Made by a program: the position numbers and the translations under genes. The notes beneath the pieces are model-generated. The model was not told the DNA's origin and did no database searches. It saw nothing but the letters and a program-made list of their open reading frames with translations. A stretch of DNA of 64,000 nt from Spiribacter sp. 2438 (lineage in GTDB: Bacteria > Pseudomonadota > Gammaproteobacteria > Nitrococcales > Nitrococcaceae). The stretch covers positions 124,001 through 188,000 of the forward strand of contig NZ_CP046046.1 in NCBI RefSeq assembly GCF_009676705.1, written 5' to 3'. Shown piece by piece: positions 17,845 to 33,184 of this stretch (position 1 is its first letter; the number at the start of each line of letters is the position of its first letter).

Positions 17845-19197
17845 TCAGTCCACCAGCTGCCGGCGGATCTCACGGGTGGGTTTTTGCAACTGTGCGGCGA
17901 GTTCCCGGAAAAGCGGCAGGTCGCGGGCGAGCCGTGGTGGTTTACCCCATCGCGCGGCCAGATGGAGGCCGCGGATATCCAGCAGGATCACCCGTTGACG
18001 GCCCCATCCGAGTCCCTCCAGTGCCAGGGACGGGTGCGGCATGCGTGCCGCTGCCAGGGAGCTTAATAGGGCACGGCATTGGGCCAGGGCTTCCTCTGGC
18101 GAGACCAGGCCCTCTTCCAGCGCTTGCTGCAGGCCCTGCTGAGCCCGGGCGCGGAAGACCACGTAACCGCCTCGGCGGGCGGGGCCGGTGGCGACCTGAA
18201 AAAATCCCAGCGGCCCTTCTACTGGCAGCCGCAGCCGTCGGGCGACGGCGGCCCGGAACCAGACCGCCTTCGGGGTGTTCCCGGTGTGCAGTCGCTCCAG
18301 GGTGGACCCGGCATGGTATTGCAGCCGGCCGGAGCCCGCACAAAAGGTGCCGGGCTCGGTGGGCCAGCCCAGGGATGGGTTTTGGTGGTCACAAGCGGGT
18401 GACGGCGCTGAGAGGCCGCGGAGCCGCTCACGCTGGTCGGGATCCACCCGGCGACCGTGGGCAACCAACAGGGTGCGGGTGCCCCGTTGGCGGACATAGT
18501 ATTTCCAGCCCCTGAGCGTGCGGCGACTGACCCGCTCGCCCACATGCCGCCGATGAGTCTGAACCGCAGAGACGAAACGCCGGGTATCGCCGGCATCCTG
18601 ACCCCGAATCTGCCAGTACTTCTGCCAGCCGGCCCGGATCTCCTCTTCAGTGAAACGGGTCTTGGAGCCGTATAGGCGGCGGAGGCTGTTGCGTGTTCGG
18701 CGGTGGGACAATGGCGCTGAATGCTGGCGGATCCGGTCACTGTCGATGGTGTACAGGATCCCGTCCCGGGGGATGAAGTTCGCCCAGTTCAGGTCGTTCT
18801 GAACCACGCCCGCCTGGTGATGGGTGGCGAGGGTCCGCAGCAGCAGCTCATGGTCGGCTTGCGATAAGGGATTCCGACAGGGCGGCCAGGAGCGGTCGGC
18901 TTCGATCCAGTCCACCACGGTGAGCCAGGTCCGGCTGGCTGCTTCGAACCCCGAGTACCGCATCGCCGGGCTGGGTATGCCCGAGCGTTGAAGCGTCCGC
19001 GCCCCCTTTGAGCCTCGCCACCATTCCCAGGCCGTGCGCAGTGGTGAGAGGTAAAACTTTGCCACCACGGATTGGCCGTTCAGTGACCCCCGGTAAAGGG
19101 CCCGTTTGCCCGGGTACTGGTGAATCAGTTGACCGGTATACAGGGTTCCGCAGCCCTTCAGATCGAACCGGCGGTGAGCGAGGGCCTTCGTGTCCAT
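17845..19197 (-). CDS. Tandem LPS kinase-like protein: kinase domain plus probable pseudokinase
   Basis: A 450-residue protein, about twice the length of a WaaP/KdkA/InaA-type LPS kinase. Residues about 1-220 look like an active kinase: K47 in VVAKFY, catalytic D135 with N140 in VVQNDLNWANF, and metal-binding D152 in YTIDSDRI. Residues about 310-445 seem to repeat the fold in degenerate form: HPSLALEGLGW replaces the HxDL catalytic loop, then LLDIRGL keeps one aspartate. I infer a kinase fused to a pseudokinase that phosphorylates a sugar of the surface glycan. It is the last gene of the operon of sulfotransferase and glycosyltransferase genes running down from 22098, six bases after the gene before it. 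Confidence 0.7.
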   Translation of the reverse strand: MDTKALAHRRFDLKGCGTLYTGQLIHQYPGKRALYRGSLNGQSVVAKFYLSPLRTAWEWWRGSKGARTLQRSGIPSPAMRYSGFEAASRTWLTVVDWIEADRSWPPCRNPLSQADHELLLRTLATHHQAGVVQNDLNWANFIPRDGILYTIDSDRIRQHSAPLSHRRTRNSLRRLYGSKTRFTEEEIRAGWQKYWQIRGQDAGDTRRFVSAVQTHRRHVGERVSRRTLRGWKYYVRQRGTRTLLVAHGRRVDPDQRERLRGLSAPSPACDHQNPSLGWPTEPGTFCAGSGRLQYHAGSTLERLHTGNTPKAVWFRAAVARRLRLPVEGPLGFFQVATGPARRGGYVVFRARAQQGLQQALEEGLVSPEEALAQCRALLSSLAAARMPHPSLALEGLGWGRQRVILLDIRGLHLAARWGKPPRLARDLPLFRELAAQLQKPTREIRRQLVD

Positions 19198-19203
19198 CCC
19201 GGT

Positions 19204-19881
19204 TCAGCGCCCGGCGTCGGCGTCATCAAACGCGTAGCCGAGCATGTCGAGATCTCTCCGATAGTGGTGGGCCACCAGCTCGGCCAGCTCATCGGTGTAG
19301 TAGCCACGGTAGTCCTGACGGTCCTGCGCACGCCGCAGGTGGGGCAGGTCGGGTTCGGGCACCCCAATGCGCTGGCAAATGCTGGCGAAGTCCGCCTGCA
19401 GATTTTCGTAGCGACCGATGAAATCAACGATGACGTTGCCCTGCAGGTCAACCAGATACTCGTGCTGTAGCTCCGCCGAGATGTCGAGCATGAAGTCGTA
19501 TTCACGCTCCGGGTCGAACTTCAGTTTCAGGAAGTCATGAAAGCCCGTGATGCCGGCAAGGACCTCGGGCTTCTCCCGCTGGATATGATGGTAGGAGCTC
19601 ACCTGCAGGTCCCAAGGGTTTCTCACGATGGCGAACTTGAACAAGCCCTGATAGACATCGGTGGGTAGCATCTCCAGCGCCGCCACGGCCTTGGCATGCC
19701 GGGGGAACTTCAAGCCCAGTTTGTGGCGGGGCCGGGTCATCTGGCTGGCCAGGCTGGCCAGCCCGAGGGGGACGTTGTACCAGCCGCCCCAACGGTAACG
19801 GCGCAGGGCCGCCCGCACACTCGTCCCTCCGGTTTTCGCGATATGCACGAACAGAAAATTCCGGCTGTAGGAGATCAGCAT
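19204..19881 (-). CDS. Sulfotransferase, Sulfotransfer_2-like (island copy 1)
   Basis: Likely transfers sulfate from PAPS to a hydroxyl of a glycan. The 225-residue protein has the PAPS 5'-phosphosulfate loop HIAKTGGTS at residues 13-21, the 3'-phosphate motif AIVRNPWDLQVSSY at about 84-97, and the DFIGRYENLQADF segment typical of this subfamily. ATG 19881 matches the start pattern of copies 4 and 8 (M-I/L-I/L-S) and follows GGGGGCGGG; a start 30 bases upstream is possible. It lies between a glycosyltransferase gene and the tandem kinase gene on one strand. Confidence 0.82.
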   Translation of the reverse strand: MLISYSRNFLFVHIAKTGGTSVRAALRRYRWGGWYNVPLGLASLASQMTRPRHKLGLKFPRHAKAVAALEMLPTDVYQGLFKFAIVRNPWDLQVSSYHHIQREKPEVLAGITGFHDFLKLKFDPEREYDFMLDISAELQHEYLVDLQGNVIVDFIGRYENLQADFASICQRIGVPEPDLPHLRRAQDRQDYRGYYTDELAELVAHHYRRDLDMLGYAFDDADAGR

Positions 19882-19920
19882 CCCGCCCCCAGGGATCGTG
19901 CCCGGCACCAAAGAGGATCA

Positions 19921-21033
19921 CTATACCCGATAGCCCAGAACCTCCAGGTAGTGTCGCGCGCTCACGGGAACCCGGTAGGCTGCCACGGCGTCACGCAGCA
20001 TCGAGCCGCTGGGCGGCGCCTCAAGGACGCGCGCCATCGCTGCCGCCAGGGCATCGGGGTTGCCCACCGGCACCAGCGGAGCAATCCGGCCATGGTCCGT
20101 GATCTCTGCCGGCCCGCTGGGGCAGTCGGTGGCCACCGCCGGTGTGCCAAGCGCCATCGCCTCCACCAGGGCGTTCGGCGAGCCCTCGTAACGCGAGGAG
20201 AGCACGTATAGCGAGGCTCTCGCCATCCAGGCGTGAGGATTGGCCTGAAAGCCTGGAAGCTGCACCTGGTCGTCAATACCCAGCTTGCGACAGAGTGTTT
20301 GCAATGCCTGACGCTCCGGCCCCTCGCCGAGAATGATGAGCCGCAACGTACGCTGCTGGCTCAATTTCGCGAAGGCCCGAATCAGTGTCGGGAAGCCCTT
20401 TTGTGCCGTCAGCCGCCCCACGCCCAAGATCACCGGGATGGTTGAGTCCGGTTGCAGCCACGGGTGGTCCACCGGGGTGGCGGCGCGGGTGTTCAGGTCG
20501 TCCGGGATGGACGGATTGCGAATGACCGTGAAGCGATCCCGGGGGATGTGGCCGATGGTGGACAGGTCATCGGCCACCGCCTCGCTTACCGTGACGATGC
20601 GGTCGGCCCAGGGATAGAGCCGCCGGACTGGCAGGTAACGGGACCAGCGCCGCAGTGCACTCTTGCCCGCCAGGGAACCGCTCAGATGCATGCCCATGCG
20701 CAGCACCAGGCGGGTGTCCACGCCGGCGAGGCGGCGCGCGATCAGGGCAATCCGGCTGGCGCGGTCCTTGGCGACCAGCATGGCCGTTGGCCGGACCCGG
20801 CGCAGGTAACGGACCAGCGCCGGCAGGGCAAGCAGCGACGTGCTGACATCCAGGCGCACCACCCGCACCTCGGGTGGAATCCGTTCCAGATGTCCGCCTC
20901 GGGCTTTCAGGAGGATCAGATCCACCTCCATCCCCTCAGCGACGAAGCCGTGCAGCAGGTTGGTGATCATGTTCTCGACGCCACCGTCCCCGGTGAAGGA
21001 GACCAGGACGGCGAGGCGGTGCGGCGCGGTCAT
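19921..21033 (-). CDS. GT4-type glycosyltransferase (island copy A)
   Basis: A 370-residue retaining glycosyltransferase with the two-domain GT-B pattern. The N-terminal acceptor half shows FTGDGGVENMITNLLHGF; the donor half shows GVGRLTAQKGFPTLIRAF, LIILGEGPERQAL and the E-x7-E motif in YEGSPNALVEA, followed by the ATDCPSGPAEI block that it shares with copies B, C and D. The ATG overlaps the TGA of the short sulfotransferase remnant upstream, so the two are translationally coupled. Sugar specificity cannot be read from sequence. Confidence 0.88.
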   Translation of the reverse strand: MTAPHRLAVLVSFTGDGGVENMITNLLHGFVAEGMEVDLILLKARGGHLERIPPEVRVVRLDVSTSLLALPALVRYLRRVRPTAMLVAKDRASRIALIARRLAGVDTRLVLRMGMHLSGSLAGKSALRRWSRYLPVRRLYPWADRIVTVSEAVADDLSTIGHIPRDRFTVIRNPSIPDDLNTRAATPVDHPWLQPDSTIPVILGVGRLTAQKGFPTLIRAFAKLSQQRTLRLIILGEGPERQALQTLCRKLGIDDQVQLPGFQANPHAWMARASLYVLSSRYEGSPNALVEAMALGTPAVATDCPSGPAEITDHGRIAPLVPVGNPDALAAAMARVLEAPPSGSMLRDAVAAYRVPVSARHYLEVLGYRV

Positions 21034-21198: not shown

Positions 21199-22098
21199 TC
21201 AGGGATCATAACCGAGAGCGTTCAGGTCTTCCGCCTGCTGATGGGCGAACTCACGGAGCGCCTCGCTCTGGCGAAATGCGTATGCGCGCTCGGGGCGGAT
21301 TTTCCGTGCCGTTTGGGTGATGACCGAGGGACCCACGGTAATCCCGCAGAACTGTAGTACGCCGCCGAGATGTTGTTCTGGACTGTGGAGGAGATCCTCA
21401 TAGCGAATCTCGAGGGCCCGGCCATGGCTAAGCGACCGGACGTGGGACTGCGCGCGCTCCGTGTAGGTACGCCAGAGCTTGAGTCCAAAGTGGAGATCAT
21501 CAACGCCCGCATTGTGCGCAACTCCCCGGCGTTTCGGAGCCCAGGGGTTGCGGAGGTGCCAGTGCCGGTTGTTGCGGTAACGATCAATGGCAGCCTGGCA
21601 CGCGACCTGGTGTCGGGCGCGCAGGCTTTCCGCGACGTCGACGCCGTGGCGGGTAATGTGTAATACCCGGGCATCGGGGAAAATATCCAGCCATATCGGC
21701 AACGTGAACGTGTTGCGGGGGTCTTTCCAGCCCCAGGGTCGGGTCTGACCGTGCATGGATCGGTGCTTCAGCCCTCTTCGCAGTCCCAGGTAACGCCAGC
21801 TGGCGGGACCCCGGGTGATGCCGCCGAGATAATCCGTGAGTACCGGGCGAATGCGCGGGTGAGACAGCAGGGTGTCAACGCCGGCGGGGCGCTCCCAGGT
21901 GGCATTCGCCTGATGAAAGACCCACGCATTGAGGGCGTTCGTGAATGGGCACTCTTCGTTGCGAGTAGAGCGTCGGCCCATGAAAAAGCCGAAACTCTGG
22001 AGGATGCGCGTGAGCAGGCTGGTGCCGGTGCGGTGCATGCCGATAACAATGACCGGCGGTAATGGGTCCGTCTTCAATTCATCGCCTTCCCGGTTCAT
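21199..22098 (-). CDS. Sulfotransferase (island copy 2)
   Basis: A 299-residue sulfotransferase whose 5'-phosphosulfate loop is IVIGMHRTGTSLLTR at residues 17-31. The 3'-phosphate region is RVLHITRHGVDVAESL, and a later LEIRYEDLLHSPEQHL block is typical of the fold. It differs from the Sulfotransfer_2-like copies of the island and looks closer to generic Sulfotransfer_1/3 proteins. It is the first gene of the leftward operon 22098-17845; a ParB-like gene starts 59 bases away on the other strand. Confidence 0.83.
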   Translation of the reverse strand: MNREGDELKTDPLPPVIVIGMHRTGTSLLTRILQSFGFFMGRRSTRNEECPFTNALNAWVFHQANATWERPAGVDTLLSHPRIRPVLTDYLGGITRGPASWRYLGLRRGLKHRSMHGQTRPWGWKDPRNTFTLPIWLDIFPDARVLHITRHGVDVAESLRARHQVACQAAIDRYRNNRHWHLRNPWAPKRRGVAHNAGVDDLHFGLKLWRTYTERAQSHVRSLSHGRALEIRYEDLLHSPEQHLGGVLQFCGITVGPSVITQTARKIRPERAYAFRQSEALREFAHQQAEDLNALGYDP

Positions 22099-22156
22099 TC
22101 TTCAGCCACCCGAGCGCGGGCCAATGGCTATGCCGGCTCATGTCATACTTTCCCCC

Positions 22157-22750
22157 ATGGCTGACTATCATCAGATCGTCATTTCACCTGCGTGGGTGCC
22201 GGTGTTCTTTCGGCGTCGAACTGTGGCGGAAAAAGCGCTTTTTGTCATGAATGGCCTGGGCGTTGGTGTCGGGCTGCGTCATGGTAGCTGGGATCGGCGG
22301 ATTGCGCCGGCGGATCAGCATCCGACTTTTATTCTTCTGCGCTCGTTGCATGCCTGCGATTTTGATCCCGGCGCTGGTCTGCAGCCGCTGGCAGAGTACT
22401 ACCAGGCGCGGGGTCTCAGCCAGGCGGGGGCCATGGCCCGGGCAGAGAGGCGAGTTCACCGCTACGTGTCCAAGTACAGGGCCCTGCGCGACGCAATGCA
22501 GCGAGACGGGTATCGGAGTGAGGCGGCCAGCGATCAGATTGGTGTGGCGATCGGGCGAGACGGGGGGTTCATCAAGGTCTCGCAGGGCCATCATCGGTTT
22601 GTGCTGGCCCGGGTGCTGGGACTGGACAGCGTCACGGCGGATGTCCGCTGGATTCACTCCGACTGGCACCGACACGCCACGGGCCTGAGAAAACCGACGG
22701 CGGAGTCGCTGATGATCGCGACGCAGAAAGCGTTGGATCAGCGCTTATAG
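22157..22750 (+). CDS. Unknown protein with a ParB/sulfiredoxin-like C-terminal segment
   Basis: I do not recognise this 197-residue protein with certainty. The segment VAIGRDGGFIKVSQGHHRFVLARVLGLDSVTADV resembles the ParB/Srx fold, with the GHHR turn that in this fold binds nucleotide; given as positions, it covers about residues 135-170. The middle is rich in Arg and Ala and probably helical. No DNA-binding domain of ParB type is seen. It is the only non-enzyme-like gene among the sulfotransferases, so a role in glycan sulfation or phosphorylation is possible but unproven. Upstream in-frame starts are possible; ATG 22157 avoids overlap with the divergent gene. Its end overlaps sulfotransferase copy 3 by 13 bases. 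Confidence 0.6.
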   Translation: MADYHQIVISPAWVPVFFRRRTVAEKALFVMNGLGVGVGLRHGSWDRRIAPADQHPTFILLRSLHACDFDPGAGLQPLAEYYQARGLSQAGAMARAERRVHRYVSKYRALRDAMQRDGYRSEAASDQIGVAIGRDGGFIKVSQGHHRFVLARVLGLDSVTADVRWIHSDWHRHATGLRKPTAESLMIATQKALDQRL

Positions 22751-23547
22751 TCCGCGTAGGTGTCGTCGAGCCGGTCGGCGATCAATCGATCCATGTATTC
22801 GATTTCAGCTGGATCGAAGGCCTCCGCGTACCCACCAATTTTTCCGGAGCGAGTCTTGTAGGTGCTCTCATCGGCGGGATCTCTGGGGGCGAGACGGCCG
22901 CTGCCCAGCGCATTGGTGGTCTCGAGTCGGCGCATGTTCTCGAAACTGCAGGCCTCCACTGCCGAGCTGATGGTTTCGTCGCTGACGTCGCGGATTCCGA
23001 CGAAGTCCACCAGACGGCGAAGTTCCCGCGCAGGATCGACGTGCAGATCCTCGTAGGTCATGAGCAGAAAGTCAGCCGGCACCTGCCGGTTCTCCGCCCA
23101 GATGTTGTAGAACGCGATGTTGGTGGCGATGCTCCCCACGGGTTCATAGACGTAATCCTGCAGGGTGCCGTTAAAGTTAATGTTTCTTTTGGTCTTCTGG
23201 TAGTACGCCGACAACGTCACGTCGCGTGGGTCTCTCACCAGAAACACCACTTGACGCCCACGGTAGAAGGACTTGTCGGTGTTCAGCGCCTCCACGGGCT
23301 GGAACTCGGGGCCGCCGTCGTGATGCTGCAGGATCAGCGGCAGGCCAGGCACCCTGCTGCGGTAGCGTCGGAGTTTGAGCGGGTTATTGATCTGAACTCC
23401 ATGGTGCCGTTCAATGACCTGGGCGAGCATGAGCACCAGCCAGGTCCGTCCACATTTGGGGAATGAGACAATATGGACGTCTGCCCGGCGCATCAGCCAT
23501 TGACGGCGCAGACGCTTCCAGTATTTCTGCATGAGCCCGGGCTGCAT
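22738..23547 (-). CDS. Sulfotransferase, Sulfotransfer_1 type (island copy 3)
   Basis: A 269-residue protein with the classic PF00685 pattern: 5'-phosphosulfate loop IVSFPKCGRTWL near residue 26-37, and 3'-phosphate motif VVFLVRDPRDVTLSAYYQ. FLLMTYEDLHVDPARELRRL and the C-terminal KTRSGKIGGYAEAF follow, the latter resembling the RxGxxGdW-type PAPS-contacting loop (here KIGGY). The ATG is preceded by GAGG; a GTG three bases upstream is an equal alternative. It is divergent from copy 4 across a 100-base promoter region. Confidence 0.88.
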   Translation of the reverse strand: MQPGLMQKYWKRLRRQWLMRRADVHIVSFPKCGRTWLVLMLAQVIERHHGVQINNPLKLRRYRSRVPGLPLILQHHDGGPEFQPVEALNTDKSFYRGRQVVFLVRDPRDVTLSAYYQKTKRNINFNGTLQDYVYEPVGSIATNIAFYNIWAENRQVPADFLLMTYEDLHVDPARELRRLVDFVGIRDVSDETISSAVEACSFENMRRLETTNALGSGRLAPRDPADESTYKTRSGKIGGYAEAFDPAEIEYMDRLIADRLDDTYADYKR

Positions 23548-23647: not shown

Positions 23648-24382
23648 ATGATTCTCAGCCACAGCCATCGATTTGTCTTCATTAAAACCCGCAAAACGGC
23701 AGGTTCAAGTCTGGAGATCGGTCTGTCGAGGGCCTGTGATCCGGATGACGTGATCACCCCCTTGAGTGCAAAGCGCGGTGAAGAGGCACTGCGCCGCCAG
23801 GAGGGCGGGGTTGGGCCCGTCAATCATCATAAGCCAATCCTGGCGCATCGGGGCCTCAAGGAATGGCGGCGACTGGCTTTGAGAGGTCAGCGAGCCGAAT
23901 TTGGCCCTCATACTACGGCTTTGGAAATTCGCCGGTATTTCGGCGACGATCTATGGACCCGTTACTATCGCTTTACCGTGGAGCGCAACCCGTGGGATCG
24001 GGCTGTCTCTCGTTATTGGTGGCAGAAACTCCGCTGGGAGGAGCGCGGGCGCAGTAACTTCCCCAAGTTGAGTGAGTATCTGGTCTGGATGGCGCGTAAT
24101 AAACCCCACTGGATTAGCAACTGGGGACATTACGCTGTTGGCAATACAATCGTGGTTGATCGGGTTTTGCGGTATGAGAACCTGAGTGCTGACTTGGCGA
24201 GCCTTGCCGCCGAGTTGGGGGTCAAAAGCGATATCAGTCTGCCGGCGCGGCGGGCCAAATCCGGTTACCGGCAGGACAAGCGGCACTACAGTGAAATCCT
24301 GACGCGTGCTGACCGTGCCCTGATTGACCGCCTTTGCCATCGGGAGATCGCTGAACTTGGCTACGAATTTGAAGGGGGCTGA
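23648..24382 (+). CDS. Sulfotransferase, Sulfotransfer_2-like (island copy 4)
   Basis: A 244-residue protein with a 5'-phosphosulfate loop FIKTRKTAGSSLE at residues 11-23 and 3'-phosphate motif FTVERNPWDRAVSRYWW at about 109-125. A glutamate stands where the family usually has Val or Phe before RNP. The segment VVDRVLRYENLSADL matches copies 1 and 8. It opens the five-gene rightward operon 23648-28052; the next gene starts two bases after its stop. Confidence 0.85.
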   Translation: MILSHSHRFVFIKTRKTAGSSLEIGLSRACDPDDVITPLSAKRGEEALRRQEGGVGPVNHHKPILAHRGLKEWRRLALRGQRAEFGPHTTALEIRRYFGDDLWTRYYRFTVERNPWDRAVSRYWWQKLRWEERGRSNFPKLSEYLVWMARNKPHWISNWGHYAVGNTIVVDRVLRYENLSADLASLAAELGVKSDISLPARRAKSGYRQDKRHYSEILTRADRALIDRLCHREIAELGYEFEGG

Positions 24383-24383
24383 A

Positions 24384-25550
24384 GTGCAATTGGAGGGTCC
24401 GCCCGACATTGCCATTTTTGGCGCGTTTCGCGTGTGGGGAGGGACCAACCGGCGCTTGCTCAACCAGATCCACTCATGGGTGCACTGGGGGCTGAACGTA
24501 GAACTGGTGACCTATCGTGACGGCGTGAAATTCTACCCTGACGAGGTCCCTAAATCGGTGGGATTCGTTCAGTTGGGCACGCAGGGCAAATTGGCGAGCA
24601 GTTTCGCCCTGTGGTCCTATATGCGCCGCCGTCGACCCAGGGTGGTGCTCTCGGTGAACCACATCAGCAATCTGGTTCTGGCGGGCACCTGGCGGCTGCC
24701 GGGTGTAACCAGCCACCGCTATCTCAGCGTGCCCAACACTTTTGGCGAATCCGAGAAACTGTCTCAGGAACCGCGTCGCCGGGCCAGAAAATTTCGGCAG
24801 ATTTGTCATTTTTATCCGCGCTCAGATGGCGTGATCGCCGTTTCCGATGGTGTGCGGGAGGACCTGTTAAACACCGTGGGCCTCAAAGGCGTAGAAGTGA
24901 CCCGGATATACAGTGGTTCGGTCTCTCCACAGGCGCTGAAGCGTGCGGAGGAGCCTCTGGAGCATCCGTGGTTTGGCGATCATCGCGACCGCCCGGTGAT
25001 TGTCACCGTCGGCCGGTTAGTACCCCAGAAGGACTACGCAAACCTGCTGCGTGCTTTTGCGCTCGTACTCGAGGAGCGGCCGGCACGATTGGTCATCGTT
25101 GGTGGCGGGCGTGAGTCCGAGGCACTGGAGGCGCTGGCTCGAGAACTGAAGATTCTCGAGCACGTTTGTTTTGCCGGGTTTCAGGCGAACCCGTATCCGT
25201 GGATGGCAAAGGCTGATGTCTTTGCGTTGTCGTCCCGCTGGGAGGGGTTGGTGAATGTTTTGCTCGAGGCCCTAGGCCTCGGTACACCGGTTGTCTCCAC
25301 CGACTGCCCCAGCGGTCCGCGTGAGATCCTCGCCGACGGCCGCTACGGCATCCTGGTGCCGATGCAGGATCCGGTGGCCCTGGCCGACGGCCTGCTCACC
25401 ACCCTGCGCGGCGATGGCCCGATCTATCGCACCGAGGAGGCAGTAGCACCATTCATGGCTGAGACGGCAGCCCGCAATTATCTGGACTACTTCGGGCTGG
25501 GAATTGCGAGCCACGGAGACCAATCGTCAGTCTCTGGCGGGGGGTCTTAG
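24384..25550 (+). CDS. GT4-type glycosyltransferase (island copy B)
   Basis: A 388-residue GT-B glycosyltransferase related to copies A, C and D. The donor half shows VTVGRLVPQKDYANLLRAF, LVIVGGGRESEAL, the E-x7-E motif in WEGLVNVLLEA, and STDCPSGPREIL. The N-terminal half begins DIAIFGAFRVWGGTNRRLL. GTG 24384 was chosen because GAAGGGGGCTGAA precedes it and it follows the sulfotransferase stop by one base; an in-frame start at 24324 would overlap that gene. It ends overlapping the next GTG by one base. Confidence 0.88.
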   Translation: MQLEGPPDIAIFGAFRVWGGTNRRLLNQIHSWVHWGLNVELVTYRDGVKFYPDEVPKSVGFVQLGTQGKLASSFALWSYMRRRRPRVVLSVNHISNLVLAGTWRLPGVTSHRYLSVPNTFGESEKLSQEPRRRARKFRQICHFYPRSDGVIAVSDGVREDLLNTVGLKGVEVTRIYSGSVSPQALKRAEEPLEHPWFGDHRDRPVIVTVGRLVPQKDYANLLRAFALVLEERPARLVIVGGGRESEALEALARELKILEHVCFAGFQANPYPWMAKADVFALSSRWEGLVNVLLEALGLGTPVVSTDCPSGPREILADGRYGILVPMQDPVALADGLLTTLRGDGPIYRTEEAVAPFMAETAARNYLDYFGLGIASHGDQSSVSGGGS

Positions 25551-26533
25551 TGCTGAAGGCGTGGTGGAGACTTCGGCGGGCCCTGAGCGAGGCGACTCCG
25601 CTGCTGCAAGCAGGTGATTATTGGCTTGAGGAAGGGGCGGCCCGCCGATTGGTGACAGATTCCGATAACTGGCGGCTGCACCCGCGCCGGTTCCGTATCA
25701 CTGGACCGCCTTCCAGTGGGCCCGGGTATGACACTGTCATTCGGCGCAGTGGCTGTCTGATTTTATTGGGCGAGGGGCGCGACCATGTCCTTCGTCTCTA
25801 CCGTGACCAGGGCGAAGTTGATCGGCTGATGACCAACAGTCGGTGGCTGCGGCCAGCATTCCCATGCCCCGCAGCAGAAACAGTGCCCGTTGAGTTGCCG
25901 GGCTGGTTCGGTGTGCGTGAGGACTTCGTGAGTGGCAGGATTCTCCGGGACGCGGCGTCGAACCGGTGGGTTCCGATATACCGAAAATTTCTGGGTTGCT
26001 GTGCTGTGAATGCGACGCGCTGCGAGGGCCGCCTGGAGACAAAAGGCTGGTTCAATGAGCTGGACAGTTGGAGTTCGCCGCCCCAGGTCCATCAATTGCT
26101 GTCCTTTTGGCACGATGAACTGGTGGAAATACTGGACGGGGCGCCGTTGCTGCGCAGTCACGGTGATGCTCATAACGGCAATCTCATAGTCACTGAAGAG
26201 GGCGATCTGGTGGTGATTGATGTTGAGCGGGTTGAGGCTCAACCCTTCTTTTTCGATGCCCTTTCCATCCTTCGCGGATCGGAAGAGGTTAATCAACACC
26301 TCCGCCGCCGGTACCTTTCAGGGCTTTTTGATAATGAGTTGATGGCCGTGTGGCAAGCTGCCGGAGAGCGCTTCTGGCCGGAGCTGCGCATACCCTATCT
26401 GCTGGCCGTAGCGGTTTGTCATGCTTTCCGGCCCCAGTTCGCCGATGGCCCGGCACACAGGCGGCAGGAGAAGCTGGTGAAAGCGGTTCAAAAAGTGCAG
26501 GCCGATTGCGAGTCAGGTCGTCCGTCATGTTGA
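25550..26533 (+). CDS. APH-like phosphotransferase (small-molecule or glycan kinase)
   Basis: A 327-residue protein with the aminoglycoside-phosphotransferase/choline-kinase type core. The catalytic loop is LRSHGDAHNGNLIV and the metal-binding segment is LVVIDVERVEAQPFFFDAL, where IDxE replaces the usual DFG. An N-terminal ATP-binding lobe is suggested by LRLYRDQGEVDRLM. In this setting the substrate may be a sugar or glycan hydroxyl; antibiotic resistance is not implied. It starts with GTG on the last base of copy B and overlaps the P-loop gene by seven bases, so co-translation is likely. Confidence 0.75.
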   Translation: MLKAWWRLRRALSEATPLLQAGDYWLEEGAARRLVTDSDNWRLHPRRFRITGPPSSGPGYDTVIRRSGCLILLGEGRDHVLRLYRDQGEVDRLMTNSRWLRPAFPCPAAETVPVELPGWFGVREDFVSGRILRDAASNRWVPIYRKFLGCCAVNATRCEGRLETKGWFNELDSWSSPPQVHQLLSFWHDELVEILDGAPLLRSHGDAHNGNLIVTEEGDLVVIDVERVEAQPFFFDALSILRGSEEVNQHLRRRYLSGLFDNELMAVWQAAGERFWPELRIPYLLAVAVCHAFRPQFADGPAHRRQEKLVKAVQKVQADCESGRPSC

Positions 26534-27258
26534 GGATCGAACTGGTCGGGCCGCCTGGCGTTGGTAAAACAACTCTGCTGAGGGTGCTGGCCGATACGTT
26601 GCCCGACGCCATGACAGCACGGAGATTGCCCTTGCTCTCCCACTTCGAGGCCAAGGGGCACCGACGCTTCACGGAGTGGCTCTATGGGCGCCATGCCGGT
26701 GAGCGATGGATGCGGCACCGCTTTGAGAAGGCCATGGTACGGTGGGAACTTAAACGATTGCGGTATGCGCCAGATCCCTGGCCCGATCTTCTGGCAAGCA
26801 CAATCTCGGCATTTGCCGAATCCACTGAACCCCCGGCGTTGGTCCTGGAGCGCATCCAGAGCTTTATCCGTCAGGTGGCGGCGATCCGATGCGCTGAAAG
26901 GCTGCCGGGGCATGGTGTGGTGCTATTCGACGAAGGCATAGTACAGCGCGCGATTAGCCTCGCTGAAGGCAACTCGGATCGTGTTGTTGAAGACTACGTG
27001 AACCGAATGCCATTGCCATCACTGACGGTTGTGCTCACCGCCCCACCAGAGCTTATTCAGGAGCGGCTGAACGCCCGTGACGGCGAGGGGAATCGGTTCC
27101 ATAGTATGGTCGAGCGCTCCCTCGCTGTGAATGATCGAATTTCCCACGCAATCGGTCATCGCGCAGGCAATGTCATTGAGGTATCCATGGATCAGCCAGC
27201 AGAGCGGGGTGTGGAAGTAATTAGCTGTTACTGGTTTTCCAGAGGGCGGCAGGCATGA
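26527..27258 (+). CDS. P-loop kinase-like protein of the glycan island
   Basis: A 243-residue protein that begins with a perfect Walker A motif, VGPPGVGKTTLL at residues 7-18. Further on, HGVVLFDEGIVQRA looks like the Walker B/lid-side acidic segment and LTVVLTAPPELIQERLNAR resembles the ADP-lid region of thymidylate- or adenylate-kinase folds. It may phosphorylate a nucleotide or small molecule, or activate sulfate-like substrates; no APS-kinase signature is evident. The ATG 26527 puts the P-loop at the usual place. It overlaps the gene before it by seven bases and the next by four. Confidence 0.68.
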   Translation: MLRIELVGPPGVGKTTLLRVLADTLPDAMTARRLPLLSHFEAKGHRRFTEWLYGRHAGERWMRHRFEKAMVRWELKRLRYAPDPWPDLLASTISAFAESTEPPALVLERIQSFIRQVAAIRCAERLPGHGVVLFDEGIVQRAISLAEGNSDRVVEDYVNRMPLPSLTVVLTAPPELIQERLNARDGEGNRFHSMVERSLAVNDRISHAIGHRAGNVIEVSMDQPAERGVEVISCYWFSRGRQA

Positions 27259-28052
27259 GAGGTTCCCAAAAATCACTATCTCGCGTATTTCAGTCCTTCC
27301 GCTATTCGTGCAAACCATTCTACCGCCGCTGTGCACTGCGGAGAGCGAACCGCCCGATTTATTCTTCCGCTAACATACCGACTATAGATTCGCGAATAAT
27401 GGTTAGTCATAAACACCAATATTTGTTCGTTCGGGTGCCTAAGTGTGCAAATACCACCATACTGAATACACTTTGGATATTGGAGGACGATACGTTGCCT
27501 GAAGAGGCGGAGAAGATGAGCCCTGAGTCGCGTCAATCCTTGATGCGTAAGCAGGACATGAAGAAAATATTCACCACTCCGTCCCGGCTTAAGAAGCAAG
27601 AAGTTGATATTGTTTTTGGGAATTATACGAAAGCTATTTTTGTCCGAAACCCTTTTAACCGGCTTGCGTCCGCCTACCTGTACTCTATTAAAGACAAAGA
27701 AAAATCCTATCGGTATGGGCTCACGCCAAATACGAGCTTTGCGGGTTTCTGTGACTATTTAAACGATGGTGGGCTCTATGCCGATATTCACTGGATTCCA
27801 CAAAGCGATATTTGTCCCTTGGAGCCGCAACAGATGGATTTTATCGGCTATTTTGAAACGTTGTCGATTGATATAAGAAGATTGACTAGTCAATTGTATA
27901 ATCGCTCGGTGAAGATGGCGATACGTCAGCATCATAAAACCAGCGCAGATTGTTATGTGGAAGAGCTTTATACAAATCGAGAGAGAAGGTTAGTCGCTGA
28001 AACGCTATACCCCAATGATTTTTGTTTTGGTTACTCCCCGGAAGTGTTCTAA
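27255..28052 (+). CDS. Sulfotransferase, carbohydrate-sulfotransferase-like (island copy 5)
   Basis: A 265-residue protein with 5'-phosphosulfate loop FVRVPKCANTTIL at about 58-70, 3'-phosphate motif AIFVRNPFNRLASAY, and a later IHWIPQSDICPLEPQQMDFIGYFETL region (about residues 175-200) that recalls the HNK-1/chondroitin-4-sulfotransferase group. The first 48 residues are basic and absent from copies 1, 4 and 8; an internal ATG at 27399 would give their typical start. The gene overlaps the P-loop gene by four bases. It is strikingly AT-rich: bases 27601-27660 hold only 19 G or C, which suggests recent transfer. Confidence 0.82.
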   Translation: MRGSQKSLSRVFQSFRYSCKPFYRRCALRRANRPIYSSANIPTIDSRIMVSHKHQYLFVRVPKCANTTILNTLWILEDDTLPEEAEKMSPESRQSLMRKQDMKKIFTTPSRLKKQEVDIVFGNYTKAIFVRNPFNRLASAYLYSIKDKEKSYRYGLTPNTSFAGFCDYLNDGGLYADIHWIPQSDICPLEPQQMDFIGYFETLSIDIRRLTSQLYNRSVKMAIRQHHKTSADCYVEELYTNRERRLVAETLYPNDFCFGYSPEVF

Positions 28053-28139: not shown

Positions 28140-28985
28140 TCAGATGCCGATGTCTGAGTCTGGGTCGCGGGAATATCCGAAGCTCTCAAAGTCGCTAGCA
28201 TAAAGGTTGGCGACGCGGTTCAGAAGGTCTTCGTCGTAATAGGCTTCAACGAGCTTGCTACTGCTAGTGATCTTGCGTTGGTCAGTTTTTTCGGCTTTGT
28301 GTGGCTTTGAGAAATCCATTGAGGCTGGAATTGAGAGCCCAGCTCCTTTGTACACTTGAGGAAGCTCGCTGGCCAGCCTTTCTACGTGAACTATAAAGTC
28401 GAAATACTCAGGCGGTATCGCCAATAAGTCTATCTGAGGCCACCAGTGGCGGTTTTTATACAGTCCAGCGTTTTCGAGAAAGTTAACGAATTCCCGAAAG
28501 CCTTGAGCGGAGTCGTCAGCGTAGCCGGGGGTTCCTCGGTAGGAATTGTTTTCTTCCATCGCCCTAATGGCGACCTTTTGCCTGAATGCAGAAAGAACCC
28601 GCGTGTAGGGGTTACGGACTACAGTGTATTTGATACTTTGGCGGAGTTTCGCGAGTTCCCGTACTCCTAATTCCCTGAAATCTTTCCCTAGGGCGCGCGC
28701 TTCGTTTTTGGCCTTTCGATATCTCGGAAAGGTTAAAGTAGAGATTCCAATGTTATGTCTTATGACCTCGAGGTTATACATGAGGATAGAGGAGTTTGCG
28801 GCCTTTTTTATCCTGTTATATACCAGATTGTGTTCTGGGTAAATCAAAAGATGTTTGCTGGTATCACGATTAATTGGTAGAGATGTTGAGAAAGCTGCCA
28901 TTCGCACCCGGAGGGATTCCTTTTGTCGGTGTATTTTCTTCGCTATCTTCAATCGCCTCACCTCGCCAAATTTTAAAAGTTTCAC
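28140..28985 (-). CDS. Sulfotransferase, carbohydrate-sulfotransferase-like (island copy 6)
   Basis: A 281-residue protein with 5'-phosphosulfate loop YNRIKKAANSSILM, 3'-phosphate motif YTVVRNPYTRVLSAFRQK, then NRHWWPQIDLL and YFDFIVHVERL, the same layout as copies 5 and 7. The C-terminus (FESFGYSRDPDS) closely matches copy 7 (FLAFGYRRDPDF). The start is GTG 28985 with a weak ribosome site; ATG 28901 is an alternative that removes a basic leader. AT-rich. It follows copy 7 on the same strand after 58 bases. Confidence 0.82.
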   Translation of the reverse strand: MKLLKFGEVRRLKIAKKIHRQKESLRVRMAAFSTSLPINRDTSKHLLIYPEHNLVYNRIKKAANSSILMYNLEVIRHNIGISTLTFPRYRKAKNEARALGKDFRELGVRELAKLRQSIKYTVVRNPYTRVLSAFRQKVAIRAMEENNSYRGTPGYADDSAQGFREFVNFLENAGLYKNRHWWPQIDLLAIPPEYFDFIVHVERLASELPQVYKGAGLSIPASMDFSKPHKAEKTDQRKITSSSKLVEAYYDEDLLNRVANLYASDFESFGYSRDPDSDIGI

Positions 28986-29043: not shown

Positions 29044-29796
29044 TCATTGGGAAAAGTCAGGGTCGCGGCGATAGCCGAACGCCAGGAAATCCTCCCGATA
29101 GAGGTTATAGACGGTTTCAATGGCTGTTGTATCGTAATAATGAGCGAAGTCTTCTTCCGATCGAGTTCGGTGTATGTCCCAACTTTGAACCCCCTCGCTC
29201 AATGGGCGGTTGAAGATCTTTTGCACCAGGTGCTCGAGATCAGTATCGATTCTTTCCAGGCGGCCGATAAAGTCCAGCTTGCCTCGGTTCTGCGGCAGTA
29301 GGGCGACCTGTGGGCACCAGTGAGGGCCATTGAACAGTGTGGGACCCTTCAGTTGGTCCAGAAATTCATGGAACTTAAGCTGTCCATTGCCGGTGCACCC
29401 GTACTTCAGGTTTTTAGCGGCCTTCTTGCCTCTGGCGACCTTGTCGAGGTAAGCAGAGAGAACCCGTCGGTAGGGGTTGCGAACGAAGGTGAACAAATAG
29501 TGGGTCCGCAATGCACGCCGAGCCGAAATGTAGCCGATTTCACGGGGGTGCGGGTAAGGAACGGACCGGTCCAACCGAGCTAGAAACGTCTGACGTACAC
29601 CTTCATCCAAACTTCTGTCATAGTACACCAAGGTGCGGCAGACCGTAGAGTGCCCCGCTTTCGGGACTCGGAAAAAGACAAACCGGTTGTTCTCTGATAC
29701 GAGAATCCGGCTGTTCACGCGCCATCGCCTGACGCGACCATCGAGGGAGCGGAGCAAAGGGTTACTCAGTTCATCCATCCACCTCGATAGGTGCAT
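29044..29796 (-). CDS. Sulfotransferase, carbohydrate-sulfotransferase-like (island copy 7)
   Basis: A 250-residue protein with 5'-phosphosulfate loop FFRVPKAGHSTVCR, 3'-phosphate motif FTFVRNPYRRVLSAYLDK, and HWCPQVALLPQNRGKLDFIG (positions about 150-170) as in copies 5 and 6. ATG 29796 was chosen because CTGGAG lies eight bases before it. The frame stays open to 29904, so starts at 29829, 29832 or 29904 are possible; the longest would overlap the start of divergent copy 8. Confidence 0.8.
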   Translation of the reverse strand: MHLSRWMDELSNPLLRSLDGRVRRWRVNSRILVSENNRFVFFRVPKAGHSTVCRTLVYYDRSLDEGVRQTFLARLDRSVPYPHPREIGYISARRALRTHYLFTFVRNPYRRVLSAYLDKVARGKKAAKNLKYGCTGNGQLKFHEFLDQLKGPTLFNGPHWCPQVALLPQNRGKLDFIGRLERIDTDLEHLVQKIFNRPLSEGVQSWDIHRTRSEEDFAHYYDTTAIETVYNLYREDFLAFGYRRDPDFSQ

Positions 29797-29896: not shown

Positions 29897-30658
29897 ATGA
29901 TCATCAGTCATCAGAACCAGTTCATATTTATCCATTGCCGTAAAGTGGCGGGTAGTTCCATGAAGGTCTGTCTGGCCCCCTACCTCAGCCCAGAGGATTT
30001 GATGCTGGGGAGCTTGCAGGAGGTCTGGAGCGGCGAGTGGTTCACGGAGCCGAGAATACTGCGGGAGGCTCTCAGCCGCGACGGTGTTCGTGAGCTTGCT
30101 AGCGGCGCTCTCCGAGGTCGTAGCTGGCGGGACTCCCTGAACAAGGCCGTGAAACGCCGTCACAAGCGCAGGTATGGTCTGTCTTCATCGGGGCATCCGC
30201 CCGCGAAAGAGGTGAAGTCAGCCTTTCCAACGGAGTGGGAAAGGTATTTCAAGTTCTGTTTCGTACGCAACCCATTCGAACGGGCAGTTTCTGATTATTT
30301 ATATCTGTGCCGTAATTCTTCGGATTCGATTTCATTCTCCAGCTTTCTGCTTAGGCTCGAGAAAATCGGTGAAGATCACCATGGCCGTTCAAAATATGAC
30401 AACTGGCCGATGTACACCATTGATAATCAAGTTGCTGTGGATTTTATTGGCCGGTACGAAAATATTGCCGATGACTTTGAAAATGTCGGGCAGCGCATTG
30501 GATTGCCAGGGTTAGCATTAACGGCGTCCGAGAAGCGCCGCGATTATCCAGTTCCCTGGCATAGATACTATGAACGCGGTGACCGGGAGCGAGTGGAGCG
30601 AATCTACCATCACGAGATAGAGGCGTTTGGCTACCAATTTCAGCCTGACTGTGCGTGA
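29897..30658 (+). CDS. Sulfotransferase, Sulfotransfer_2-like (island copy 8)
   Basis: A 253-residue protein starting MIISHQNQFIFIHCRKVAGS, with the 5'-phosphosulfate loop at about residues 12-22, 3'-phosphate motif FCFVRNPFERAVSDYLYL, and VDFIGRYENIADDFENV like copies 1 and 4. The ribosome site AGGAAGG precedes the ATG. It is a single gene facing the glycosyltransferase/ligase pair that follows on the other strand. Confidence 0.85.
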   Translation: MIISHQNQFIFIHCRKVAGSSMKVCLAPYLSPEDLMLGSLQEVWSGEWFTEPRILREALSRDGVRELASGALRGRSWRDSLNKAVKRRHKRRYGLSSSGHPPAKEVKSAFPTEWERYFKFCFVRNPFERAVSDYLYLCRNSSDSISFSSFLLRLEKIGEDHHGRSKYDNWPMYTIDNQVAVDFIGRYENIADDFENVGQRIGLPGLALTASEKRRDYPVPWHRYYERGDRERVERIYHHEIEAFGYQFQPDCA

Positions 30659-30679
30659 GGGCAGCAATGGTGGGTCGGG

Positions 30680-31774
30680 CTACTGAACAGCCAAGCCCAT
30701 CACCTTGAGGTAGCGTCTCGCAACCTCGTCACTTCGGAAGCGAAGCAATCCCTCGCGCAGCAGTTCGGGACTGGGGGGGGCCTCCAGGGTTTGAGCCATG
30801 GCACGCGCCATAGCGCCGCAATTGCCAACGGGTACCAGTGGGCCGATCCGGCCACGCATCAAGATTTCGTCCGGGCCTGAGGGGCAATTGGTGGAAACAG
30901 CTGGCGTGCCGGTAGCAAGTGCTTCTATCAATACGTTGCCGAGTCCTTCATACCGGGAAGACAGAGCAAATAGCGAAGCTCGAGCCAGATAGGGAATGGG
31001 GTCCGGGATATATCCAGGCAGCGAGACGTCTTCCCCTACGCCAAGCGCCTCTGCCTCTTGCAGCAGCGACTGATGCAACGGGCCGTCACCAAGAATCATC
31101 AAACGGGCAGCGCGTTCTTGGCGAAGCTGTGCGAACGCTGAGATTAGGGTTGCGAAGTCCTTTTGCGTGGTGAGCCGCCCAGCTCCCATAATGACTGGGG
31201 GGCCATCACCCTGCAGCCATGGGTGGGAAACCGGTTGGCTCGCCCGCTCCGGTATGCAGGGCGTAACGGTGGGGTTGTAAATGACTTCAATCTTGTCGGC
31301 GGGGACGCTCATATAGGAAACAAGGTCGTCGCGTACTCCCTCGGACAAGGCGATTAGACGATTGGCATAAGGATAGAGAGCTCGAGCAGACAATCGTTTG
31401 AAGCGGCGTCTGAGAGTCTGGCTGGGAGTATTGGTCATTTTGACATAGACCGGAATATCGAGTCGCCCGAACGTGCTGGCCAGGATAGCGGCTTTTGCGG
31501 AATGGTCTTTCGCCGTCAGCAATGCGGCGGGAGGGTCGGTTTTTAGATGCCGAATGAGCTTTGTGATGCTACTTAGCTTGCCGCCGCTATTGAGATCCGT
31601 GACCCTGACATCGGCGGGGAATTCGTCGGGATAGGGGATGACCCCTCCCCGCGGAAGCAAGAGCTCTGGCTGCACGCCGAGCGCTAAAAACTCCCTGCAA
31701 AGGATCAATAGCTTACGCTCTATGCCCCCCCAGCGCTTGCATGGCGCCAGTATCGCCACCCGTGTGTTACTCAC
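30680..31774 (-). CDS. GT4-type glycosyltransferase (island copy C)
   Basis: A 364-residue GT-B glycosyltransferase, related to copies A, B and D. Donor-half motifs are GAGRLTTQKDFATLISAF, LMILGDGPLHQSL, the E-x7-E motif in YEGLGNVLIEA and STNCPSGPDEIL. The N-terminus reads VAILAPCKRWGGIERKLL. It starts with GTG. It lies 27 bases after the O-antigen ligase gene on the same strand, suggesting it builds the glycan that the ligase handles. Confidence 0.88.
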   Translation of the reverse strand: MSNTRVAILAPCKRWGGIERKLLILCREFLALGVQPELLLPRGGVIPYPDEFPADVRVTDLNSGGKLSSITKLIRHLKTDPPAALLTAKDHSAKAAILASTFGRLDIPVYVKMTNTPSQTLRRRFKRLSARALYPYANRLIALSEGVRDDLVSYMSVPADKIEVIYNPTVTPCIPERASQPVSHPWLQGDGPPVIMGAGRLTTQKDFATLISAFAQLRQERAARLMILGDGPLHQSLLQEAEALGVGEDVSLPGYIPDPIPYLARASLFALSSRYEGLGNVLIEALATGTPAVSTNCPSGPDEILMRGRIGPLVPVGNCGAMARAMAQTLEAPPSPELLREGLLRFRSDEVARRYLKVMGLAVQ

Positions 31775-31801
31775 TGCGCCACCCCCTGACTGATCATTCG
31801 G

Positions 31802-33184
31802 TTACTCGCTGGCTTGAACCAGTCGCTGGAAATGGCTGGCGCAAATTGGCCCCAAGAATACTGCGATTACGTGGGAGGATTGAAACCGTGTGATCTGATG
31901 TGTTCCCAGCATCCAGACGAGCATCAGGACTGCGAACCCTATGCCTGTCAGTGCGAGCATGGATGAAAGCGCTTTGTTTCGCCCATTTCCTGCGATCATC
32001 CTGAAAGCTTCGAACATCAGACAAGCCACAAACGCCATGATGAGTAGCCAGCCTGTCAAGCCTAGGCGCGCCAAAATCTCAACATGAGCGTCGTGGAAGT
32101 GTCCCGAACGTCCCTCCAGCAGCGGCGGTATCGGGCGTTTATCCATCAGGTAATAGGGCTCTGCGGGCCCCCACCCAGCGAGAGGCCGGTCGACCCAGAG
32201 CTGGATCGCGAAGACTTTGTAGGCGACGCGAGCACCGACATTCCGGTCTTCAAGCTCCCACGCATCGGCAAGGCTTTGCATTTGCAGGGTTTGTTGCATG
32301 CCTTCCCCGGCTGAGGTCAATCGGCGTTCCAGCTCTCCCCAGCCTGCGACGATCACCCCGGCGACGAGCATCACTAAGGCCAGCATCCCAATAAGTGCCT
32401 GCGGCTTGAATAACCGGTCCCGGTAAATCCAGGCAGCCGCCAGCACAACAACGAACGTGGCAGGAAGGACGGCAAACCAGGCTGTTCGGGTCTTCGTGGC
32501 AAACAAAGCTATCAGCAGAACGGTGATGATCATCACCCATAGAAAGAACCGCAGGTATTTCGCACCGGAGCGGGTCGCTGACCCATTATTTGAGAGCCCG
32601 CTGACGAGTGCCGGGGCAAACCCCAGGGCGAGAATCAGGGCGGCCCCAATCAAAAACCCTGATCTCGAGTGTCCCATCCCAAATATGTAACGACTGGACC
32701 CTTGTAGCGCCGCAGTCAGTTCATTCCAGGACCATGCTGGCAGGACTTCGAAGGCCAGGACGCCGAGTACCAGCGCAACGATGGCGCCGGTGGCATGGCG
32801 GGCCCAATTACCGGTTGCCAGTAACACCAGACCGAAAATAATGGTGGGCAGTACGATGGTTCTTGCCCAGCTGCTGGTGCCGTCCAGATGCGCAATGGTC
32901 AGCTCGGGCTGTTCGAGAAATGCAGCGATGACGCCCCGCCCGAGCACGTAGAGCACATAAGCAACGCCGATCCATAATAAAACCGAGCCGGACATCAGGT
33001 GACGATGCCGGAAGCCGATTATTACCGCCACGATCAGCATTGCCAGTTGGGAAAGCTGACCGAGAGCGATGCTCTGCGGTGGGATGAATGCAAACAAGTA
33101 AAGGCAGCCGAGGGCCCAGTAGCGGAGCGAGCCACGTGGCACCTCTCGCACTGACCCGGCCAGGCCGGCGGTTGATCTGCTCAT
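31802..33184 (-). CDS. O-antigen ligase/polymerase family membrane protein
   Basis: A 460-residue inner-membrane protein with about eleven to twelve hydrophobic segments and a large periplasmic loop in the second half. The loop holds the Wzy_C-type signature PLAGWGPAEPYY followed by GHFHDAHVEILARLGLTG, which contains the conserved histidine region. Such proteins either join O-chain to lipid A-core (WaaL) or polymerise repeat units (Wzy); the sequence alone does not decide. It opens the two-gene leftward unit with copy C and is divergent from the MsbA-like gene. Confidence 0.85.
   Translation of the reverse strand: MSRSTAGLAGSVREVPRGSLRYWALGCLYLFAFIPPQSIALGQLSQLAMLIVAVIIGFRHRHLMSGSVLLWIGVAYVLYVLGRGVIAAFLEQPELTIAHLDGTSSWARTIVLPTIIFGLVLLATGNWARHATGAIVALVLGVLAFEVLPAWSWNELTAALQGSSRYIFGMGHSRSGFLIGAALILALGFAPALVSGLSNNGSATRSGAKYLRFFLWVMIITVLLIALFATKTRTAWFAVLPATFVVVLAAAWIYRDRLFKPQALIGMLALVMLVAGVIVAGWGELERRLTSAGEGMQQTLQMQSLADAWELEDRNVGARVAYKVFAIQLWVDRPLAGWGPAEPYYLMDKRPIPPLLEGRSGHFHDAHVEILARLGLTGWLLIMAFVACLMFEAFRMIAGNGRNKALSSMLALTGIGFAVLMLVWMLGTHQITRFQSSHVIAVFLGPICASHFQRLVQASE

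Follow-up and report, generated by a model that had tools for sequence, protein, structure and literature searches.

A foreign lipopolysaccharide core block with eight predicted PAPS-dependent sulfotransferases in Spiribacter sp. 2438

LpsS is the gene name of the rhizobial lipopolysaccharide (LPS) sulfotransferase. In rhizobia (Sinorhizobium/Mesorhizobium), LPS is sulfated by an enzyme dependent on 3'-phosphoadenosine 5'-phosphosulfate (PAPS), and the passage describing it cites a single LPS sulfotransferase, with the PAPS genes lying elsewhere (PMC6192434). Here we analyse a window of 64,000 nucleotides, positions 124,001-188,000 of the single-contig genome of Spiribacter sp. 2438 (1,900,931 bases), in which a block of foreign genes between glnE and ilvE combines eight predicted PAPS-type sulfotransferases, ST1 to ST8, with LPS core genes (Table 1; gene coordinates are window-based). 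The likeness to LpsS-type systems lies in PAPS-dependent sulfation of bacterial LPS, predicted in our case, and in PAPS genes located elsewhere; by description the two differ in that the rhizobial passage cites one sulfotransferase, whereas eight are found here, within an LPS core block that encodes an MsbA as well. As far as that passage goes, bacterial LPS sulfation has been known from single rhizobial enzymes, compared with the seven to eight conserved sulfotransferases of the present block.

That a lipid-linked glycan can be multiply sulfated has a chemical precedent in axinelloside A, for which we know of no biosynthetic genes and of no established producer. This sponge compound is a highly sulfated lipopolysaccharide of 12 sugars carrying 19 sulfates (PMC4052302). 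Glycan clusters with a sulfated product are described in two marine bacteria, Vibrio sp. KMM 8419 and Cobetia marina KMM 1449 (PMC11641403, PMC11766843), whose products are, judged by those descriptions, capsules and not an LPS core. Within the genus itself, the Spiribacter island GI3 is likewise a variable LPS locus, described as an O-chain island; in congeners the locus lies between lpxM and tolC and holds other genes, and the word 'sulfotransferase' occurs 0 times in that paper (PMC3832224). LPS sulfation in rhizobia and sulfated capsules in marine bacteria are already known. A description of this locus was not found in the literature searched, most subscription papers falling outside that search.

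All eight sulfotransferase genes of the original prediction are open and full-length, as seen from a Pfam search of the window proteins, and both the 5'-phosphosulfate loop and the Arg...Ser motif for the 3'-phosphate can be read in 8/8, so that the PAPS-binding residues on which that prediction depended are retained in every copy. ST1, ST5, ST6, ST7 and ST8 lie above the PF03567 cut-off (42-91 bits vs 22), and seven of the eight pass some Pfam cut-off, ST4 being the exception. Three Pfam families are represented: six Sulfotransfer_2 proteins including the sub-cut-off ST4, one Sulfotransfer_3 (ST2) and one Sulfotransfer_1 (ST3, in agreement with the type first proposed for it). Across the six PF03567 proteins the Lys, Arg-Asn-Pro and Ser columns are invariant, with ST2 showing Arg in place of Lys, and both PAPS loops are invariant in an alignment of 20 ST1 rows. 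By family models and motifs, we assign all eight as putative PAPS-dependent sulfotransferases. For ST7, the start at 29796 agrees with homologues better than the longest open reading frame (ORF) start at 29904. ST3 resembles cytosolic sulfotransferases (SULTs) by sequence, its best solved relative being found at E 2.7e-14; the same kind of search for solved relatives of ST1 and ST7 returned none that was convincing. A structure model of ST7 (pLDDT 85.5) gave Foldseek PDB ranks 1-33 that all belong to the sulfotransferase superfamily of heparan sulfate 6-O-/N-sulfotransferases and cytosolic SULTs, with weak matches of which the best reached E 0.015.

The eight sulfotransferases are old paralogues, six of which are aligned with each other by blastp at 21-35% identity. 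A group with a shared HWxPQ motif (ST5, ST6, ST7), proposed from the sequence at the outset, was recovered as a tree branch, and a second proposed group of copies 1, 4 and 8 is seen as ST1 plus a less supported ST4/ST8 branch (87/90). The additional remnant of a ninth copy could not be recovered: scanning all six frames of the window with hidden Markov models of three families, at E up to 5, yielded the eight genes, their cross-matches and a few chance-level scores below 6 bits. The gene hypP was considered as such a remnant and ruled out, since it matches no sulfotransferase and homologues of hypP itself occur elsewhere. In the whole Spiribacter sp. 2438 genome PF03567 is matched seven times, five of these in the window and the others at 754 and 1,801 kb, while of 13 congeners three have one match each and ten have none. 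Because at least one match is present in 32 of a wider sample of 59 relatives, sulfotransferases as such are common in the order, but their dense clustering is not. As had been anticipated, PAPS would be supplied from elsewhere in the genome: a genome-wide search for adenosine 5'-phosphosulfate (APS) kinase gave one match, a fused ATP sulfurylase/APS kinase of 574 residues at 1,652 kb (NCBIfam bifunctional sulfate adenylyltransferase/adenylylsulfate kinase, 944 bits vs 669), which by this assignment is predicted to be capable of making PAPS.

We then compared the island across relatives, as the original prediction had suggested, laying out 12 other genomes gene by gene. These were picked because they had matches; the gene matrix rests on tblastn, and gene calls in several of the relative loci, as well as at the comEC-lpxK site and the four distant ST1 loci discussed below, were made with a simple ORF picker and are approximate. 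Seven of the eight sulfotransferase types recur one-for-one in 7/12 of these genomes: two Ectothiorhodospiraceae metagenome-assembled genomes (MAGs; G049, G023), G037 from the same order as Spiribacter sp. 2438, Thioalkalivibrio thiocyanoxidans ARh2 (G420), Thioalkalivibrio ALJ3 (G422) and ALJ7 (G424), and Desulfurivibrio sp. AMeS2 (G423). The remaining genomes hold five types (G426, including a doubtful ST8 at 38%), four (G425) or three (G421), and G026 and G040 hold two and three, each plus a 34% ST7-like gene. In the seven-type genomes kinB, NK and Olig are present in 7/7, all four family 4 glycosyltransferases (GT4) in 5/7 and three of them in G049 and G023, and msbA lies beside the sulfotransferase set in 6/7, the 38 kb read of G423 being without it. 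Reciprocal best hits to the window sulfotransferases were obtained for 7/8 in G049, 7/8 in G023 and 6/8 in G037, for which part of the locus was compared, at identities of 38-90%; ST3 of G037, absent from the part first compared, was located further along the same contig. Desulfurivibrio belongs to the Thermodesulfobacteriota, Thioalkalivibrio and Spiribacter to the Gammaproteobacteria, and the full set, judged from these homologies, appears to be uncommon and shared between Gammaproteobacteria and a member of the Thermodesulfobacteriota.

In a tree built on 40 Sulfotransfer_2 proteins of eight genomes, ST1, ST4, ST5 and ST6 each form one branch with 98-100% support, and ST7 does so at 99/99 with one additional G049 copy aside. 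Copies group mainly by position and not by genome. The window ST7 stands with Desulfurivibrio ST7 (95/99) and ST8 likewise at weaker support (89/87), which is not the case for ST1 and ST4; the tree program warned of long-branch joining, and the deep joins are unreliable. These data bear on the possibility that the sulfotransferases piled up by local duplication and drift in a variable antigen locus, many copies having no distinct role. LPS loci are typical variable islands, as in the O-chain cluster description of Spiribacter GI3 (PMC3832224), the GC content falls to 47-53% over 27-30 kb, and gene order is shuffled between genomes. However, paralogues are 21-35% identical at most, compared with 38-90% for orthologues in other genera, the copies group by position in the tree and the PAPS loops are kept, which renders this explanation very improbable.

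Two more general uses of the set were tried and dropped. ST8 alone as marker of cassette spread was found in 4/369 genomes of the class including our own, the other three at 34-41%, in a sample that has few genomes per genus and passed over known relatives in the order. A general pairing of glycosyltransferase and sulfotransferase was likewise rejected: GTa-ST1 recurs, and other pairs are mere neighbours in some genomes. A further MAG, G426 (Ectothiorhodospiraceae, another order by sample grouping), shows a compact same-strand run adjoining glnE in the order ST3, ST4, GTc, GTb, ST8-like, GTd, ST2, GTa, ST1, hldE, which is perhaps near a minimal form of the locus.

The block between glnE and ilvE is foreign, and both the native LPS locus and the native msbA are lost. 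It fills the whole glnE-ilvE interval at 17.84-41.80 kb (about 24 kb). Three of its genes are phylogenetically discordant with the flanking glnE: glnE groups with congeners (95/96), while hldE (99/99, with genome G035), lpxL (98/97) and msbA (100/99) group with another family of the order that includes Aquisalimonas, the msbA branch containing other families plus congener G003. Identity of hldE is 55-59% to congeners and 71-75% to the other family. In 6/6 congeners for which the stretch is complete, the genes run glnE, ilvE, late acyltransferase, variable genes, lpxL, hldE, kdkA, waaA, tolC, where the late acyltransferase, lpxL and hldE were not detected in every one of the six. The window instead reads glnE, foreign block, ilvE, late acyltransferase, tolC, with an end-to-end overlap between the final two ORFs. 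Since the late acyltransferase runs directly into tolC, the native LPS locus, which in congeners lies between lpxM and tolC, is absent from its place.

A corresponding gap is found for msbA. Native-type MsbA is present at 51-54% in 11/13 congeners; of the other two, G003 carries a foreign-type protein at 71% and G004 (86% complete) has none above 35%. In the two congeners read, msbA is located between comEC (with or without two small genes) and lpxK; in Spiribacter sp. 2438 comEC adjoins lpxK at 889-893 kb with slight overlap as called, and the native gene is missing between them. The block MsbA is the sole close MsbA found in this genome, the next best ABC match being at 34%. G003 carries msbA, lpxL, kdkA, the family 9 glycosyltransferase (GT9) gene, waaA, ilvE and the late acyltransferase arranged alike beside a glnE fragment, and no Sulfotransfer_2 match was found in this incomplete genome. 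Either G003 lost the sulfotransferases or Spiribacter sp. 2438 gained them later. Of the usual signs of island ends, no tRNA was found in the window and no block gene reads as an integrase; end repeats were not searched.

As to content, a transferase for 3-deoxy-D-manno-oct-2-ulosonic acid (Kdo), heptose enzymes, a late acyltransferase and MsbA reside in one block, as is characteristic of an LPS core locus. The adjacency of MsbA-like, HldE, WaaA and KdkA genes to the sulfotransferases, claimed in the original prediction, holds: WaaA, HldE and MsbA exceed their NCBIfam cut-offs and KdkA is a PF06293 protein, LpxL and the GT9 gene being assigned via Pfam. The O-antigen ligase/polymerase is present as well. 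Where three related GT4 enzymes had been counted there are four, GTd lying just beyond the reported span 17845-33184, and the foreign block runs on to about 41.8 kb, past the reported end near 33.2 kb; the core observation stands. After glnE (end 17,833), the order is kinA, ST1, GTa, ST2, hypP, ST3, ST4, GTb, kinB, NK, ST5, ST6, ST7, ST8, GTc, Olig, msbA, GTd, lpxL, hldE, kdkA, the GT9 gene and waaA (end 41,797), followed by ilvE, the late acyltransferase and tolC. Taken as a whole, the earlier observation is partly confirmed and its interpretation partly supported.

We consider it probable that the block encodes an entire, transferable pathway leading to an LPS core or oligosaccharide with several sulfates, and that it replaced the native locus and msbA. 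PAPS-dependent sulfotransferases, GT4 enzymes, WaaA and KdkA-type kinases are cytoplasmic and act before flipping by MsbA. In the proposed mechanism, Kdo and heptose-type sugars would be put on lipid A by WaaA and the GT9 enzyme (with HldE and KdkA), and the chain would be lengthened by the four retaining GT4 enzymes, while the eight cytoplasmic sulfotransferases, fed with PAPS from the fused sulfurylase/APS kinase, would each sulfate a given hydroxyl on a given sugar during chain growth. Addition or preparation of phosphate groups is the probable task of kinA, kinB and NK, the sulfated lipid-linked product would be flipped by the block's own MsbA, and the Wzy_C-type protein Olig may ligate or polymerise a further piece. 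An ancestor would have received the block from an Aquisalimonas-like lineage of the other family, inserted between glnE and ilvE, and then lost its native LPS locus and msbA. Gene content, PAPS loops, one-for-one conservation, the foreign origin of three block genes and the loss of native ones are observed; we infer that an LPS is made, that it carries sulfate, that one enzyme serves each position and that the steps follow this order. In the simplest scheme, sugars are added one after another and sulfate is placed at fixed positions. The case for position-specific sulfation, part of the original prediction, has become stronger because the sulfotransferases are conserved one-for-one across distant genera and because the block carries its own MsbA, WaaA, HldE, LpxL and KdkA.

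The same prediction had spoken of a sulfated surface polysaccharide. An LPS-type locus with many sulfotransferases bearing PAPS loops agrees with this, but a polymer may overstate the product. Of the hallmarks of a Wzx/Wzy O-antigen locus, the initiating transferase Bac_transf has 0 matches in the genome (9/14 controls match; the WecA-type PF00953 was not searched), and no flippase lies within the locus, the sole genome match to PF01943 (Polysacc_synt, Wzx-like) being about 600 kb off at 757.7 kb. The congener Spiribacter salinus makes rough LPS (PMC5923411). Because no Bac_transf was found and the LPS of S. salinus is rough, a long polymer and a sulfated core or oligosaccharide are equally likely, and a sulfated lipooligosaccharide fits best. 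The sulfotransferases could instead act on a separate capsule, O-chain or exopolysaccharide, their genes merely adjoining LPS core genes. For this speak the Wzy_C-type gene in the set, the marine sulfated capsules with sulfotransferase genes in their clusters (PMC11641403, PMC11766843), the Wzx-like flippase at 757.7 kb and the genome G037, in which one contig carries the sulfotransferase set and another the LPS core genes. We regard it as unlikely, though deserving attention, given that Bac_transf is missing from a genome searched with matching controls, that MsbA stands beside the set in 6/7 seven-type genomes including the separate G037 locus, and that in G035 ST1 and GTa sit among lpxL, hldE, kdkA and waaA with the rest of the set absent.

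ST1 has a much wider distribution than its companions. It occurs in 19/54 genomes of the order and in 0/13 congeners, and 299 stretches of a named genome collection encode a relative. In the best 80 of these 299, each stretch being no longer than about 20 kb so that counts of types are minima, ST1 is the sole one of the eight types in 62/80, two types are seen in 8/80 and three or more in 10/80; glnE is seen in 21/80 with window queries. The rarity originally claimed for an LPS locus thus applies to the full set, which is uncommon, but not to ST1 alone, which is common. ST1 is perhaps an enzyme of greater age and more general use that was recruited into the block. Since it is widespread and some relatives lie outside glycan loci, an LPS role of ST1 should not be projected onto all of them. 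That some of the sulfotransferases, ST1 foremost, sulfate a small molecule or a non-LPS lipid would be compatible with the orphan relatives amid unrelated genes in 3/4 distant loci read by eye, namely the lone genes of Alteromonas lipotrueae, Thiocapsa roseopersicina and Thiorhodospira sibirica. We hold this to be quite improbable, as the window and 41/80 named loci have a GTa-type gene no more than 1.5 kb from ST1. By eye, the ST1 relative of Ectothiorhodospira lacustris has GT4-like genes a few kb to one side and CysN/CysD-like genes about 3.4 kb away on the other (14074-16880 of its stretch).

For the sulfated LPS core or oligosaccharide that we favour, several findings beyond the split locus of G037 and the orphan ST1 relatives have to be weighed on the opposite side. 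Among the 80 ST1 loci, 18 show hldE, kdkA, waaA, lpxL or lpxM, many loci being short and the window queries insensitive. ST8 does not form one group in the 40-copy tree, its G426 copy (38%) being a long branch that falls apart, and the structural support for ST7 is weak, with no Foldseek match at E<=0.001.

Going further, we put forward tentatively, and with some doubt, that seven or eight sulfotransferases write a heparin-like, position-coded, hypersulfated LPS core, and that the set moves between phyla as one unit adaptive for life in saline and alkaline settings, accompanied by a matching MsbA which takes the place of the lipid A flippase of the host. The link to saline and alkaline habitats is an impression gained from organism names. 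Seven to eight sulfotransferases, each kept for one position, would cover several halophiles and haloalkaliphiles with a strongly acidic, pH-independent sulfate layer, and soluble bacterial enzymes for glycan sulfation, differing in specificity, would be at hand. The block documents a near-complete natural swap of the lipid A-core machinery in which the native msbA was lost too, a finding relevant to how freely an essential export step can be exchanged.

Table 1. Features of the block and its right-hand border in the window.
Feature	Coordinates	Strand	Evidence and remarks
kinA, two-part kinase-like protein	17845..19197	-	no Pfam family at E<=0.01; KdkA similarity sub-threshold, 22.1 bits vs 142
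ST1, Sulfotransfer_2	19204..19881	-	PF03567 42.4 bits; widespread member of the set
GTa, GT4 glycosyltransferase	19921..21033	-	PF13692/PF00534; often partners ST1
ST2, Sulfotransfer_3	21199..22098	-	PF13469 82.8 bits
hypP, conserved protein	22124..22750	+	without Pfam or NCBIfam family
ST3, Sulfotransfer_1 (SULT type)	22738..23547	-	PF00685 100.1 bits
ST4, divergent Sulfotransfer_2	23648..24382	+	PF03567 21.4 bits vs cut-off 22; PAPS loops; own orthologue group
GTb, GT4 glycosyltransferase	24390..25550	+	PF13692 121.8 bits
kinB, APH-type kinase	25550..26533	+	PF01636 34.3 bits
NK, P-loop kinase, predicted thymidylate/adenylate kinase fold	26527..27258	+	AAA_18 33.5 bits; structure model
ST5, Sulfotransfer_2, HWIPQ group	27255..28052	+	PF03567 91.4 bits
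ST6, Sulfotransfer_2, HWWPQ group	28140..28985	-	PF03567 83.3 bits
ST7, Sulfotransfer_2, HWCPQ group	29044..29796	-	PF03567 88.6 bits
ST8, Sulfotransfer_2	29897..30658	+	PF03567 61.5 bits
GTc, GT4 glycosyltransferase	30680..31774	-	PF13692 107.1 bits
Olig, O-antigen ligase/polymerase type	31802..33184	-	Wzy_C PF04932 58.9 bits
MsbA, lipid A exporter, foreign type	33319..35133	+	TIGR02203 719.8 vs cut-off 602
GTd, GT4 glycosyltransferase	35006..36265 (ORF)	+	PF00534 118.5 bits; true start ~35.14-35.16 kb, past msbA
LpxL-type late acyltransferase	36256..37191	-	PF03279 240.8 bits; TIGR02207 280.6, slightly below cut-off 297.8
HldE	37263..38714	+	NF008454 718.5 vs 521
KdkA-type Kdo/WaaP kinase	38709..39419	-	PF06293 173 bits; start set by eye
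GT9 heptosyltransferase-like	39393..40529	+	PF01075 147.3 bits; heptosyltransferase I model 102.9, under cut-off 185.3
WaaA, Kdo transferase, final gene of foreign block	40526..41797	+	NF004388 463.9 vs 438
Right-hand scar, ilvE and late acyltransferase (lpxM) straight into tolC	41797..44037	+	LPS locus of congeners sits here

Among the other genes of the set, homologues of kinA at 35-66% adjoin ST1 in many relatives, those of hypP are found at 31-47% in other loci and recur in LPS-type loci of several genera, and those of Olig occur in 4/54 genomes of the order, its own genome counted. Of the three kinase-like genes reported at the outset, kinB and NK are backed by family libraries, while kinA has sub-threshold similarity only; we describe kinA as weakly KdkA-like, kinB as APH-like and NK as thymidylate/adenylate-kinase-like by its fold in a model of moderate confidence (pLDDT 80.2; best Foldseek E 6.4e-6, to thymidylate kinase). 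A role of NK as a PAPS-making kinase is not claimed, the nearest folds being thymidylate and adenylate kinases.

Two further regions of the genome contain Sulfotransfer_2 genes. At 754-758 kb, one such gene is accompanied by a second sulfotransferase-like ORF with the Wzx-like flippase close by, perhaps representing a second sulfated glycan locus. At 1790-1810 kb, another lies in a polysaccharide-type locus, in which a sugar dehydrogenase, an asparagine-synthase-like gene, glycosyltransferases and transposases were recognised by eye.

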